Part shown: positions 2,078-64,000 of the stretch, piece by piece
How the letters are laid out: each line of letters opens with the position of its first letter
Numbering within the stretch: position 1 is the first letter of the stretch
Source of the DNA: Pseudomonas sp. BP8
GTDB lineage: Bacteria > Pseudomonadota > Gammaproteobacteria > Pseudomonadales > Pseudomonadaceae
Reading direction: 5' to 3'
Assembly: GCF_017875955.1 (NCBI RefSeq)
Contig: NZ_JAGINK010000001.1
Location: forward strand, 5,548,501-5,612,500
Length of the DNA: 64,000 nt
The notes under the pieces: generated by a model
What the model was told of the DNA's origin: nothing
What the model saw: the letters and a program-made list of their open reading frames with translations, nothing else
Database searches by the model: none
Made by a program: the position numbers and the translations under genes

Positions 2078-2563
2078 TCAGTCGCGGAAGTTGTTGAACT
2101 GCAGCGGCATATCGAATTCCTTGGCGCGCAGGGCAGCGATCGCCTCCTGCAGGTCGTCACGCTTCTTGCCGGTAACGCGCACCTGCTCACCCTGGATGGC
2201 CGCCTGGACCTTGAGCTTGGCGTCCTTGATGTGGGCGACGATCTTCTTCGCCAGCTCTTTGTCGATGCCCTCGCGGAAGGTGGCTTCCTGCTTCATTTCC
2301 TTGCCCGAAGCATAAGCGTCCTTGACCTCCAGGCACTTGACCTCGATCTTGCGCTTGACCAGCGCCCCGCGCAGGATCTCGATCATCGCCTCGAGCTGGA
2401 ACTCGGCCTCGGCGGTCAGCAGGACGGTCTGGTCCTTGTCCTTGAATTCGAAGCTACCCTTACCCTTGAGGTCGTAGCGACGGTCCAGCTCCTTGATGGC
2501 GTTGTCGACAGCGTTCTGCACTTCGTGCTTGTCCAGTTCCGATACCACGTCGAACGAAGGCAT
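2078..2563 (-). CDS. yajQ: YajQ family nucleotide/cyclic-di-GMP binding protein
   Basis: A 161-residue cytosolic protein that is full length for the YajQ (DUF520) family, which has two ferredoxin-like folds. It begins [20 protein letters not shown] and contains the family signatures [18 protein letters not shown] and [15 protein letters not shown], and ends LQFNNFRD. Family members bind cyclic-di-GMP in Xanthomonas and Pseudomonas and affect virulence gene expression, and others bind RNA or nucleotides; which applies here is not visible. It is transcribed divergently from the panE-like gene across a 100-base gap. Confidence 0.95.
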
Positions 2564-12937: not shown

Positions 12938-13018
12938 CCAGGCGCATGCCTTGCTGCTGAGCCACGCGCCTTACCCAGCACCCGGACATATAAAGGTTCT
13001 TCCCGGATTGTCTGGTTC

Positions 13019-13042
13019 TGGGGCTGGGGCTGGTTTTTGGGG
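13019..13042 (+). other. Guanine-tract head of repeat copy A
   Basis: The run TGGGGCTGGGGCTGGTTTTT followed by GGGG has three runs of four guanines and one of two. It could form a weak or two-layer G-quadruplex and directly abuts the left end of the modular repeat. Confidence 0.45.
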
Positions 13043-13368
13043 CTTATCCATTTGATGTGGTGCCACCACTGGCCCCTTCCGCCCTTACGGCGGGTCACTT
13101 TTTTTCTTGGAAAAAAGTAACCAAAAACCGCCTGCTCCTGCATCCGGCCCTTCGCTCCGGTCTTGCTCCGGGAGGACCGCGCTGTACGGCCCATCCTGGG
13201 CCTCAGCGCTTTCCGGCCATCCATGGCCTCCACCTCCCTGCGCAAGACCTCCACTCGGCCTCCTGAAGTCGCGAAGTTACGGGCGGCGTCTGAGCTGGCG
13301 TTGTCTTCGATAGTGGCAGGTGTGGGGGATATTCGGGCCTCTTCGCGGGGCAAGCCCGCTCCTACAGG
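13039..13368 (+). repeat. Modular dispersed repeat, copy A (3' module type 1)
   Basis: This copy fills most of the gap between convergent dciA and lpxC. Order of parts: GGGGCTTATCCATTTGATGT left end; CTTACGGCGGGTCAC box; hairpin ACTTTTTT-TCTTGG-AAAAAAGT (13097-13118); a GC-rich core with GGTCTTGCTCCGGGAGGACC and GGCCATCCATGGCC; CTCGGCCTCCTGAAGTCGCG; type 1 3' module beginning GAAGTTACGGGCGGCG; terminal REP (13334-13368). Compared with copies B, D and E it lacks about 20 bases of the core, probably lost between short CCCTC/CGCT repeats. Open frames across it exist on both strands and are not conserved as proteins. Confidence 0.85.
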
Positions 13369-31634: not shown

Positions 31635-31995
31635 GGTGGAGAGTCGATCTATAAGCCGGGTTTTGTCGAGGACAGTCATTCCTCTACGACGGCCATCACT
31701 GGACGCCTCTAGCAACCTACCCGGTTCCGACGCGGGCCACGCCTAATGGAACCCTATTTGGTCTTGCTCCGAGTGGGGTTTACCTAGCCACGAACTGTTG
31801 CCAGACGTGCGGTGCGCTCTTACCGCACCTTTTCACCCTTACCGGCACCGAAGTGCTTAGGCGGTTATTTTCTGTGGCACTTTCCGTAGGCTCGCGCCTC
31901 CCAGGGGTTACCTGGCACTCTGCCCTATGGAGCCCGGACTTTCCTCCCCCCTCTTTTGCGGAACAAAAGAAGGCAGCGACTGTCCAATCGACTCT
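31635..31995 (-). ncRNA. rnpB: RNase P RNA, class A
   Basis: The catalytic RNA subunit that trims tRNA 5' leaders. The minus strand begins AGAGTCGATTGGACAGTCGC and ends near AACCCGGCTTATAGATCGAC plus TCTCCACC; the two ends pair (GAGTCGAT / ATCGACTC) to form helix P1. Conserved class A sections are GGAGGAAAGTCCGGGCTCC (CR-I), AGAGTGCCAGGTAAC, GGTAAGGGTGAAA and GAGGAATGACTGTCC with ACAAAACCCGGCTTA. Ends are approximate within a few bases. It is in the usual pseudomonad place between rsmI and mraZ. Confidence 0.97.
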
Positions 31996-36915: not shown

Positions 36916-36983
36916 CGGGCACTGCCCCACCATAAGAAAGTTTCTAATGATCTTTTGGTTTGGCTGGCTGGCTTAGGAATTGT

Positions 36984-37332
36984 GGGCTTATCCATTTGAT
37001 GTGGAGGCGCCACTGGCCCCTTCCGCCCTTACGGCGGGTCACTTTTTTTCTTGGAAAAAAGTAACCAAAAACCGCCTGCTCCTGCATCCGGCCCTCCGCT
37101 GCGCTACGGGTTCCCTCGCTCCGGTCTTGCTCCGGGAGGACCGCGCTGTACGGCCCATCCTGGGCCTCAGCGCTTTCCGGCCATCCATGGCCTCCACCTC
37201 CCTACGCAAGACCTCCACTCGGCCTCCTGACGTCGCGAAGTTACGGGCGGCGTCTGGGCTGGCGTTGTTTTTGATAGTGGCATGGGTGGTGGATATTCGG
37301 GCCTCTTCGCGGGGCAAGCCCGCTCCTACAGG
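36984..37332 (+). repeat. Modular dispersed repeat, copy B (3' module type 1)
   Basis: Full copy in forward orientation after the small lipoprotein gene. Left end GGGCTTATCCATTTGATGTG, hairpin ACTTTTTT-TCTTGG-AAAAAAGT (37041-37062), full core including the CCGCTGCGCTACGGGTTCCC segment missing in copy A, type 1 3' module (GAAGTTACGGGCGGCG...) and terminal REP. Apart from that core gap it is near identical to copy A, over 20 kb away. Confidence 0.88.
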
Positions 37333-37397: not shown

Positions 37398-37649
37398 TAC
37401 TGCCAATACAAATCGCAGGGCGCAGCCCTGCCAGCCAACCCACAAATCCGCTGGTAAATAAACAAAAGCGAGAGCGCAGCGATTCGCCAGCAGTTGCCCT
37501 GGCTGTTGATCTTGATCTGGCTCTTGATCTACCAGCGACTTCAGGAGGCCGAGTGGAGGTCTTGCGCAGGGAAGTGGAGGCCATGGATGGCCGGAAAGCG
37601 CTGAGGCCCAGGATGGGCCGTACAGCGCGGTCCTCCCGGAGCAAGACCT
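37363..37649 (-). repeat. Modular repeat, copy C left part (reverse, 3' module type 2, truncated)
   Basis: Reverse-oriented copy that begins (reading leftwards) inside the core at GGTCTTGCTCCGGGAGGACC, and carries CTCGGCCTCCTGAAGTCGCT followed by the type 2 module (TGGTAGATCAAGAGCCAGAT, GAATCGCTGCGCTCTCGCTT, TTGTTTATTTACCAGCGG) and a terminal REP. The 5' third with the hairpin is absent: it stops at GCAAGACCT, where forward sequence takes over. Confidence 0.85.
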
Positions 37650-37767
37650 ACGCTCGGCCTCCTGAAGTCGCGAAGTTACGGGCGGCGTCTGGGCTGACGT
37701 TGTCTTCGATAGTGGCATGGGTGGTGGATATTCGGGCCTTTTCGCGGGGCAAGCCCGCTCCTACAGG
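37641..37767 (+). repeat. Modular repeat, copy C right part (forward, 3' module type 1)
   Basis: Forward fragment starting at GCAAGACCT, then CTCGGCCTCCTGAAGTCGCG, the type 1 module and a REP. The nine bases GCAAGACCT are shared by both parts, which fits an inversion or recombination through microhomology. Confidence 0.8.
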
Positions 37768-37831: not shown

Positions 37832-38224
37832 CACTGCCAATGCAAATCGCAGGGCGCAGCCCTGCCCAGCCACCCCACAATTCCGCTGATAAATAAACAA
37901 AGCGAGAGCGCAGCGATTCGCCAGCCGTTGCCCTGGCTGTTGATCTTGATCTTGCTCTTGATCTACCAGCGACTTCAGGAGGCCGAGTGGAGGTCTTGCG
38001 CAGGGAGGTGGAGGCCATGGATGGCCGGAAAGCGCTGAGGCCCAGGATGGGCCGTACAGCGCGGTCCTCCCGGAGCAAGACCGGAGCGAGGGAACCCGCA
38101 GCGCAGCGAAGGGCCGGATGCAGGAGCAAGCGGTTTTTGGTTACTTTTTTCCAAGAAAAAAAGTGACCCGCCGTAAGGGGGGAAGGGGCCCAGAAAAGTC
38201 ACCACACCAAATGGATAAGCCCCC
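37797..38224 (-). repeat. Modular dispersed repeat, copy D (reverse, 3' module type 2)
   Basis: Complete reverse copy: reading from 38224 leftwards it has GGGGCTTATCCATTTGGTGT, hairpin (38143-38164), full core, CTCCTGAAGTCGCTGG, type 2 module and terminal REP. The left end is preceded by guanine runs (GGGGG, GGGG, GGG, GGGGG on the minus strand). It is 428 bases long, compared with about 350 for type 1 copies. Confidence 0.88.
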
Positions 38225-38272
38225 AACCTACAAAACCCACCCCATCGCGCCCCCAGACAACCCAAAAGACCA

Positions 38273-62176: not shown

Positions 62177-63616
62177 ATGACCGTGCTCAAGGCACTGAAA
62201 AAAATATTCGGCAAGGGAGACGCCGTGCCTCAGGCCGTCGAACCCGATGCCCACGTGATTATGCCCGTGCCCGCGGCTCAGCCGCCGGTTCCCGAGGCCA
62301 AGGCCAGCCCCCAGGTTGAGCCCCCTGCCAGCCCCCGCGTCGACAAGCCTGTCCAGGACAAGCCGCGTCGCGAGCGCAAGCCCAAGCCACAGGCCAGCCT
62401 GTGGAAACCGGAAGATTTCGTCGTCGAACCCCAGGAAGGCAAGACCCGCTTCCACGACTTCAAGCTCTCCAACGAACTGATGCATGCCATCCAGGACCTG
62501 GGTTTCCCCTACTGCACGCCAATCCAGGCGCAAGTGCTGGGTTACACCCTGCGTGGCCAGGACGCCATCGGCCGCGCCCAGACCGGTACCGGTAAAACCG
62601 CGGCCTTCCTGATCTCGATCATTTCCCAGCTGCAGCAGACGCCACCGCCCAAAGAGCGCTACATGGGCGAGCCGCGCGCGCTGATCATCGCGCCGACCCG
62701 TGAGCTGGTGGTGCAGATTGCCAAGGACGCCGCCGACCTGACCAAGTACAGCGGCCTGAACGTGATGACCTTTGTCGGCGGCATGGACTTCGACAAGCAG
62801 CTCAAGGCCCTTGAAGCGCGGCACTGCGACATCCTCGTGGCCACCCCAGGGCGCCTGCTGGACTTCCACCAGCGTGGCGAAGTGCACCTGGACATGGTCG
62901 AAGTGATGGTGCTGGACGAAGCCGACCGCATGCTCGACATGGGCTTCATTCCCCAGGTGCGGCAGATCATTCGCCAGACCCCGCCGAAGAGCGAGCGCCA
63001 GACGCTGTTGTTCTCCGCGACCTTTACCGACGACGTGATGAACCTGGCCAAGCAATGGACCACCAACCCGGCGATTGTCGAGATCGAACCGGAGAACGTT
63101 GCCAGTGAGACTGTCGAGCAGCATGTGTATGCCGTGGCCGGCAGCGACAAGTACAAGTTGCTGTACAACCTGGTGACCCAGCAGAAGTGGGAACGGGTGA
63201 TGGTCTTTGCCAACCGCAAGGACGAAGTACGGCGCATCGAAGAGCGCCTGGTGCGCGACGGCATCAATGCTGCTCAGCTGTCGGGCGACGTGCCGCAGCA
63301 CAAGCGTATTCGTACGCTGGAGAACTTCCGCGAAGGACGCATCACCGTGCTGGTGGCGACCGACGTGGCGGGGCGTGGGATTCATATCGATGGCATCAGC
63401 CATGTGATCAACTTCACCCTGCCGGAAGACCCCGACGATTACGTGCACCGGATTGGCCGTACTGGCCGGGCTGGGGCTGCGGGGATATCGATCAGCTTTG
63501 CTGGCGAGGATGACTCGTATCAGTTGCCGGCGATCGAGACGCTGCTGGGGCGCAAGATCAAGTGCGAGATGCCGCCGGATGAGCTGTTGCAGGCGGTACC
63601 GCGCAAGCATTCCTGA
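62177..63616 (+). CDS. rhlB: DEAD-box ATP-dependent RNA helicase RhlB
   Basis: A 479-residue helicase. A disordered proline- and lysine-rich extension (about 12-78) precedes the helicase core: Q motif (F95 to Q117), AQTGTGKT (134-141), [13 protein letters not shown] (247-250), SAT (280-282), and in domain 2 [12 protein letters not shown] and [10 protein letters not shown]. RhlB unwinds RNA in the RNase E degradosome. An overlapping ATG lies 5 bases before the chosen one in another frame. The C-terminus lacks the basic tail of E. coli RhlB (421 residues). Confidence 0.93.
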
Positions 63617-63626
63617 TCTTTGAACT

Positions 63627-63648
63627 GGGGCTTGGGCTTGGGCTTGGG
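63627..63648 (+). other. Canonical G-quadruplex motif after rhlB
   Basis: GGGG-CTT-GGG-CTT-GGG-CTT-GGG: four runs of at least three guanines with identical 3-base loops, 10 bases past the rhlB stop on the coding strand. Both DNA and the rhlB mRNA tail could fold into a three-layer quadruplex. It abuts repeat copy E. Confidence 0.8.
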
Positions 63649-63659
63649 CTTGTAGGTTG

Positions 63660-64000
63660 GGGGCTTATCCATTTGATGGGGTGCTGCTACTGGCCCCTTC
63701 CGCCCTTACGGCGGGTCACTTTTTGGCAAACGCCCCAAAAAGTAACCAAAAAGGTCTCCGCTCCGTCATACGGCCCTCCGCTGCGCTACGGGTACCCTCG
63801 CTCCGGTCTTGCTCCGGGAGGACCGCGCTGTACGGCCCCTCCTGGGCCTCAGCGCTTTCCGGCCATCCATGGCCTCCACCTCCCTGCGCAAGCCCTCCAC
63901 TCGGCCTCCTGAAGTCGCTGGTAGATCAAGAGCCAGATCAAGATCAACAGCCAGGGCAACGGCAGGCGAATCGCTGCGCTCTCGCTTTGTTTATTTACCA
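63660..64000 (+). repeat. Modular dispersed repeat, copy E (3' module type 2, cut by window edge)
   Basis: Left end GGGGCTTATCCATTTGATGG, CTTACGGCGGGTCAC box, a hairpin with changed sequence but retained pairing (ACTTTTTGG/CCAAAAAGT, 63718-63743), full core, CTCCTGAAGTCGCTGG and the type 2 module up to TTGTTTATTTACCA at the window end. The REP expected next lies outside the window. Confidence 0.85.

Follow-up and report, generated by a model that had tools for sequence, protein, structure and literature searches.

A hairpin with a selected fold in a dispersed Pseudomonas repeat is very probably part of an extended TwoAYGGAY-type RNA and may act within an Rsm decoy

The hairpin described here, termed S1, is real and conserved, and its fold is selected. 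Structurally, it very probably represents the 3′ hairpin of a larger RNA of an extended TwoAYGGAY type, which the minus strand encodes within a repeat element of the Pseudomonas sp. BP8 genome. The window, i.e., the whole stretch of 64,000 nucleotides analysed, contains the left arm of one such element and the start of its interior at 63640..64000 (+, head outward); the element itself extends outside the window and ends near genome position 5612983. The best explanation overall, to which we give an even chance, is that this extended TwoAYGGAY-type RNA acts as a dispersed Rsm decoy. Here, transcription of the element, Rsm binding, titration and mobility are what we infer. New are the extension by S1, the third AYGGAY motif, the setting within a repeat and a mirror tract that covaries with S1.

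An earlier note on this DNA had reported a hairpin at 63718-63743, which is present as described. With its full base it spans 63714..63747 and reads GGTCACTTTTTGG-CAAACGCC-CCAAAAAGTAACC in plus-strand letters, while the RNA strand (minus) reads GGUUACUUUUUGG-GGCGUUUG-CCAAAAAGUGACC. It is adjoined by hairpin a at 63700..63714 (CCGCC-CTTAC-GGCGG on the plus letters), which on the RNA strand (minus, CCGCC-GUAAG-GGCGG) is the 3′ neighbour of S1 and whose inner pair varies between C-G and U-A across other genomes. The extension of the S1 stem by its flanks with one mismatch was likewise found, and this mismatch, C.A on the plus strand, becomes a U.G wobble when the minus strand is read. The stem that the note had given for its copies A, B and D, ACTTTTTT-TCTTGG-AAAAAAGT, was confirmed in the copies at 13112, 37056 and 38149 (minus). 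Between these and the present hairpin, its copy E, pairing is indeed kept. As the loop is replaced as well, the copies are better seen as two subfamilies than as a single clean compensatory substitution.

The hairpin occurs in many copies. The pattern GGGTNACTTTTN{2,32}AAAAGTNACC has 113 matches (59 + 54) in the 6.0-Mb single-contig genome and none in a reversed control, and the 15-base 3′ part AAAAAGTAACCAAAA (at most 2 mismatches) occurs four times in the window with 0.05 expected. Of 125 full arms in this genome, 89 have the exact stem type TTTTTT-TCTTGG-AAAAAA and nine the exact E type TTTTTGG-CAAACGCC-CCAAAAA, while S1 is mutated or missing in 27. The E type is also present in P. putida HAI-2, P. 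plecoglossicida NBRC 103162, P. sp. GM84 and P. sp. UFMG81. Therefore, copy E is no chance replacement, a possibility that the note had raised against itself. A protein-coding repeat was rejected, since the two core types of this genome, with 18 and 22 bases, differ by four bases and keep no frame. Many species have a small hairpin inserted into the loop of S1 (CCGGAATGCCGG type) with S1 pairing kept (L157, L264, L274, L385, L389, L392 and others). Pairing of the loop with upstream sequence, as a pseudoknot or alternative hairpin, was dropped from the main claim because by eye it is absent from both types of this genome; in other genomes, such pairing of at least 5 bp is present in 21 of 56 distinct loops against 11.3 expected (1 of 5000).

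The proposal that sequence change with kept pairing marks a selected fold was examined by a covariation test with shuffled and slid partners on many copies, and it was borne out. In 59 distinct cores from other genomes, the stem runs 2.81 bp past the fixed TTT/AAA, compared to 1.31 bp with shuffled partners (0 of 10,000). The loop CAAACGCC alone is found on six stems, TTTTGG, TTTTGA, TTTTT, TTTTTA, TTTTTC and TTTTTGG, each with a matching 3′ arm. For an alignment of 53 distinct short-loop cores (A3), the covariation score is 0.167 against 0.068 in shuffles (0 of 500) and a maximum of 0.138 for slid partners, and 93.5% of the cells are paired against 86.9% in shuffles; further pair types are no more numerous there than in the shuffles (248 of 500). 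A subset of 42 of the 53 cores, which omits one core from another genome and 10 from this genome, several of which have disrupted pairs, is 94.0% paired and scores 0.183. Both alignments exclude cores of more than 24 bases from long loops. RNAalifold on a smaller alignment (A1) agrees on S1.

The pattern used to search 149 genomes fixed GGGTNAC/GTNACC and TTT/AAA, which leaves only the inner pairs informative. Since the outer stem was thereby fixed, the covariation test was repeated on sequences reached via the Rfam family RF01731 and not via the hairpin, a set that avoids this constraint. Here, 18 distinct sequences gave a score of 0.252 versus 0.075 in shuffles (0 of 500) and a slid maximum of 0.105, with 98.3% of the cells paired; the underlying alignment (A2) omitted 6 of 28 for long-loop cores. 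Double compensatory changes were found at 6 of the 16 pairs of S1 and hairpin a (0 of 500 shuffles), and the seemingly invariant outer pair turned out to be G-C in 12 and C-G in 6 of the distinct sequences. The shuffles in all of these tests ignore kinship among the sequences.

The evidence favours, short of proof, a minus-strand RNA over DNA as the folded molecule. When read from the minus strand, the stem has its wobble as U.G in 47 of 53 sequences of one alignment and in 18 of 18 of the other. At the pairs that the two strand models share, A.C on the plus strand (G.U on the minus strand) outnumbers G.T by 165 to 128, a modest excess. With RNA parameters, the present arm folds better as the minus strand (z −3.22 versus −2.21), while as DNA both strands fold equally well (z −2.06 for the minus strand versus −2.11). 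A joint fold of 84 arms from other genomes by RNAalifold contains 78 pairs on the RNA strand, 63 of them with more than one pair type. It reaches −148 compared to −39 with shuffled columns (15 shuffles), a lenient control because shuffling breaks up neighbouring columns; the plus strand is nearly as good with −140. The sets of 84 and 108 foreign arms used in this study include two arms from IMG/VR contigs. Alternatively, a transcript that spans a pair could fold with one arm against the other.

The element is linked to TwoAYGGAY RNA, RF01731. This family, with a gathering cut-off of 43 bits, scores above that threshold in 119 of 199 genomes of Pseudomonas and in none of 14 controls. In the best loci of 30 Pseudomonas genomes, S1 lies 36-43 nt downstream of RF01731 on the same strand in 28, the two others being L363, where the contig ends, and L373. 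On arms of other Pseudomonas, RF01731 lies on the strand opposite to the coordinates of the present hairpin. The present arm itself scores 21.0 bits (core 63820-63877), below the cut-off. Its TwoAYGGAY-like domain at 63805..63895 (minus) has a closing stem (63805-63821/63879-63895) around two hairpins with GGA loops, of which H1 has the loop AUGGAU, an AYGGAY motif, and H2 the loop AGGAG, which keeps GGA and is not AYGGAY. Another element of the window matches RF01731 at 37528..37678 (+) with 47.4 bits, above the Rfam cut-off.

Arms in other genomes bridge the gap between the present arm and the family. Five of them (L142, L174, L175, L176 and L315; L174 and L175 from P. putida HAI-2, L176 from P. 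sp. UFMG81) are 80-84% identical to it over 217-251 bases, and RF01731 is over cut-off in these arms with 45.6-51.6 bits. Three of the eight bridging records (L152, L173 and L290) are without an RF01731 match despite arms that match the present one, among them the closest of all, L173 with 86%. In the genus run, no RF01731 match was found in the BP8 genome among the 13 of 398 candidates scored. Matches of TB8Cs3H1, Six3os1_4 and L31-Firmicutes on the arm were below cut-off and taken as chance; microRNA matches from Rfam at 37.3 and 37.8 kb, also below cut-off, lie by eye on REP pairs.

The element shares with TwoAYGGAY RNA (RF01731, PMC2864571) the strand and the two GGA-loop hairpins within a closing stem. 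In contrast, S1, hairpin a, the covarying U-tract and the third AYGGAY motif lie past the stretch matched by Rfam at these loci; moreover, the sequence occurs here as a multi-copy inverted repeat whose present arm is under the cut-off. The available text of PMC2864571 lists TwoAYGGAY as probably an RNA and probably neither cis-regulatory nor a switch, whereas the Rfam type label of RF01731 is cis-regulatory. It is further mentioned in PMC11701678, PMC7657543 and PMC11661157. Among the matches listed in a full-text search on the name, the portions available do not discuss the Pseudomonas repeats, and the literature found, as far as its text was available, assigns no tested function to TwoAYGGAY RNA.

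The GGA motifs suggest what such a function may be. According to the fold of the arm, H1 (63861..63874, minus; GGCC-AUGGAU-GGCC) contains CAUGGAUG, and H2 (63825..63855, minus) has the loop AGGAG here and AGGAU in most copies of this genome. A motif search across arms revealed a third AYGGAY motif (AUGGAU) 3′ of hairpin a at 63667..63672 (minus). Hairpins with GGA loops are enriched on the RNA strand, with 2.23 per arm in 100 arms of this genome (1.03 when shuffled) and 1.92 in 108 foreign arms (0.98 when shuffled), and on this strand only, since the other strand has 0.28 and 0.06, respectively. At least two of them are kept on the RNA strand in 78 of the 100 arms of this genome, where C-AUGGAU-G has 75 and C-AGGAU-G 65 matches. 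In foreign arms, the loops vary (AUGGAU, AGGAC, AGGGAU, AAGGAU), while GGA and the closing C-G pair are kept. Among the arms of this genome, 78 of 100 have the third motif, as do 91 of the 108 from other genomes, compared to 3.3 and 7.8 in shuffled sequences.

These motifs match the published RsmA/RsmE target ANGGAN. In the available text of the respective studies, ANGGAN loops are the target of RsmA/RsmN (PMC3791407), and the 8-mer of H1, CATGGATG, equals a proven site of repression of cfcR by Rsm proteins (RsmA/RsmE/RsmI) in P. putida (PMC6849547). Binding of TwoAYGGAY by CsrA has been proposed earlier for Clostridia, according to the part available of PMC4333381. Based on the motifs, an Rsm-binding role of the arm RNA is plausible, its chances falling slightly short of even, and an Rsm-binding RNA, possibly a decoy, would be the best-supported mechanism.

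Such an arm RNA would consist, from 5′ to 3′, of the closing stem with its two GGA-loop hairpins, a linker, the U-tract, S1, hairpin a and the third AYGGAY motif, the GGA loops of this genome being predicted mostly as C-AUGGAU-G and C-AGGAU-G. Once transcribed, it would bind the CsrA-family proteins RsmA/RsmE/RsmI at the GGA motifs and so act as a dispersed decoy; between the GGA motifs, S1 and hairpin a may serve as a stable spacer that keeps them apart. RsmX/Y/Z and CsrB/C are separate sRNA genes with their own promoters. As in these CsrA/RsmA decoy RNAs, each of which by the available accounts has several ANGGA motifs located in its hairpin loops (PMC4333381, PMC3791407), multiple ANGGA-type motifs lie in loops of the RNA strand. 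Unlike them, the element is present in many dispersed copies, binding is predicted, and a sigma-70-like promoter was not found in the two elements scanned. A literature search on Rsm together with sponges or repeats listed no such report among its matches, as judged by title and the start of the abstract.

If this were true, a repeat element would tune a global regulator through its copy number, and the dose of the Rsm decoy would differ widely among species. The hairpin pattern is present in 73 of 149 genomes of the genus, this genome included, with 0 to 111 matches per genome. For TwoAYGGAY RNA, described in 2010, the high-copy REP-containing repeat of Pseudomonas makes the proposed role directly testable in laboratory strains, and the identity of one arm loop with a proven RsmA/RsmE/RsmI site adds to this.

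In this genome, a profile search of stretches revealed at least 74 sites of the element between genes, measuring 382-1815 bases and derived from about 100 of the 113 pattern matches. A full arm in each direction is present at 57 of the 74 (56 measured, plus the present site with its partner outside the window), the heads face outward in 56 of 56 measured pairs, with the plus arm left of the minus arm, and 72 of the 74 sites contain a REP-like core. Besides the present arm, sequence and profile searches located in the window an arm of the TCTTGG type at 36980..37236 (+), its inverted partner with part of the interior at 37887..38244 (−) and a single arm at 13018..13272 (+). In none of 99 cases was the partner the nearest relative of an arm, and mean identity is 0.80 within sites and 0.835 between them, which gives no support to local duplication as the origin of the arms. 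Arms in inverted pairs that enclose REP sequences have probably spread as units into intergenic gaps, often between convergent genes.

The history of the present site can be read from its neighbours. The hairpin is located downstream of a gene for an RhlB-type RNA helicase that ends at 63616 (NCBIfam NF002340; Pfam helicase domain), and on its far side, outside the window, lies moaE on the opposite strand. The helicase gene was searched against 398 genomes of the genus; among the loci of the best 29 relatives, 26 keep the helicase-moaE neighbourhood, and the element is absent from the gap in all 26. There, the gap measures 26-205 bases, by eye a REP pair or less, compared to 943 bases here. 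One of these relatives (G057) has the empty site and copies of the element elsewhere in its genome. By this comparison, the site was filled in this lineage. At the nearest empty sites, the flanking genes are about 90% identical and the gap is too different to define the ends or a target-site duplication.

Inverted-repeat ends together with presence and absence among relatives are features of REPIN/MITE-like elements, and a purely DNA-level account is conceivable. RAYTs are REP-associated transposases. A transposase, for instance one of this kind, would recognise the folded ends as single-stranded DNA hairpins or terminal inverted repeats, and the structure would be kept for movement. The paired outward arms, the REP-like cores, the empty sites and the lack of support for local duplication of the arms all speak for this, and DNA hairpins also accommodate G.T pairs. 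However, the GGA loops and the third GGA motif are kept on one strand only and would be unneeded by a transposon end. Furthermore, head-inward pairs exist too: other genomes yielded 17 outward and 2 inward pairs (L174, L175), next to 111 loci with a single S1, many of them cut by contig ends, and two more inward pairs are L142 and L315. We regard movement as the reason for the structure as a possible, though on balance unlikely, account; the decoy and the mobile element can both hold.

REPINs are about 100 bp long. The element resembles them (PMC3116915) in the REP pairs within it, which by eye stand alone at this site in most relatives, and differs from them in its arms. The P. fluorescens repeats R178 (101 bp, including an inverted repeat of 11 bp inside it) and R200 (320 bp), compared by their description in the accessible text of PMC2718517, are also intergenic, and a tail-to-tail bias of repeats is described there too. 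Among the matches listed in a literature search by element sequence, nothing was relevant by title.

Several variants of this architecture were observed. The largest elements of this genome, at 1737878 (1763 bp) and 2514839 (1815 bp), contain several tandem interior modules in alternating orientation. In six loci of this genome (L057, L068, L125, L127, L133, L017) and one of another species (L306), the usual head is swapped for a recurrent flank, AAAGACCTTGAAAGGGATGGCCC or similar, and this alternative flank joins the same hairpin a and S1. L174 and L142, whose arms face inward, are flanked by extended simple repeats (AAGCAAAAGC, AGAGCGAAGAGCGA); in L174, an additional double change of the outer stem (GGTTCC/GGGACC) is found in the left S1. 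Several draft contigs (G122, G140 and others) end within about 200 bases of S1, as is expected if the repeat breaks assemblies.

Gene orientation around the sites brings in a further explanation, a bidirectional transcription terminator or insulator between convergent genes. Convergent neighbours flank 35 of 73 sites of this genome compared to 5 of 50 gene pairs of the window (Fisher p ~1e-5, on rough gene calls from a simple codon-usage caller), 28 of 56 sites with both neighbours within 350 bp, and 21 of 37 single-arm loci elsewhere. Hairpin a followed by the T-run resembles a terminator from either flank. Nevertheless, of the eight two-arm loci in other genomes only two lie between convergent genes, the T-run is down to three T in several variants that still keep the pairing, and it is interrupted in the forms of other genera (TTTCTCTTG). 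With its varying T-run, the element lacks the immediate conserved T-run that follows the G/C stem of an intrinsic terminator. Termination would also leave the GGA loops and the 300-base fold unexplained, and we consider it quite improbable. Beside co-directional genes, single arms (among the 37 loci) show no strand preference with 7 versus 8, which speaks against a role in 3′-UTRs.

The divergence of the BP8 arms from RF01731 and the arms with a damaged or lost S1 mentioned above would also suit a relic, i.e., a formerly functional RNA that was passively spread and is now functionless in this genome. Since most arms of this genome keep at least two GGA hairpins on the RNA strand as well as the third motif (78 of 100 in each case), such a decay appears quite unlikely.

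Outside the genus, 369 genomes of other gammaproteobacterial genera were searched and yielded seven clear S1 hairpins in six genomes; two further matches were not hairpins, and a reversed control gave 8 matches. Additional searches added more such hairpins (loci in all L237, L238, L240, L241, L244-L246, L336-L359). None of four such loci examined has a TwoAYGGAY match alongside S1, which argues against tying S1 too closely to GGA binding, and four arms show no excess of GGA loops (0.50 versus 0.55). Two IMG/VR contigs carry the exact hairpin pattern and none the other-genus form. A cargo of phages or plasmids was rejected, as only a partial relative (17% of the query) was found in 1 of 72,556 plasmids and none in 50,697 phages.

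The forms of other genera bear on a second feature, a U-tract at 63748..63752 (minus; an A-tract on the plus strand) directly 5′ of S1 on the RNA, whose covariation comes from other genomes and which may be a mirror 'third strand'. This pyrimidine tract would run parallel to the purine arm of S1 and match it (U.A-U, C.G-C). The mirror run of tract and arm is 4.42 against 3.79 in shuffles (0 of 10,000) for 60 distinct cores and 4.09 against 3.87 (0 of 10,000) for 53 Pseudomonas cores. In Pseudomonas stems with TTTCG and TTTTTC, the tract changes along with the stem. In other genera, arm and tract pair off on the plus strand as CAAGAGAAA with AAAGAGAA, CAAAAGAAA with AAAGAAAA and CAAAGAAAA with AAAAGAAA; eight bases match in 5 of 7 cores, and in L359 the match by eye fails beyond five. 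The match runs across a base of six pairs in nearly all forms, and about six pairs is the distance that a short linker can bridge along the deep groove of an RNA helix. Since the tract is a mirror and not a direct repeat, Watson-Crick competition is no full explanation, although seven bases could pair in register.

On the RNA strand, tract and S1 would form a parallel pyrimidine triple helix. A far-reaching version puts S1 at the centre of a natural triple helix of RNA, by which the 3′ portion would be stabilised in a mobile RsmA/RsmE decoy that has spread genome-wide to over 70 sites and so shifts the Rsm balance of the cell; taken as a whole, this version appears improbable to us. The available text of PMC4666352 describes intrastrand triplex motifs (PIT/TM) and not a motif of the S1 type. 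Common to both is the Y-R-R layout, in which a third segment forms a mirror on the plus strand; the motif characterised there is G/C-rich and about 36 nt long, whereas the element here is A/T-rich with a pyrimidine third strand on the RNA.

Two other structured RNAs were noted in passing. In another Pseudomonas, a C4 antisense RNA (RF01695) lies near the element at 2379-2464 (+) of L156, with an a1b1 target just below the cut-off. In the window itself, RNase P RNA class A (RF00010) is present at 31636-31995 (−) with 340 bits.
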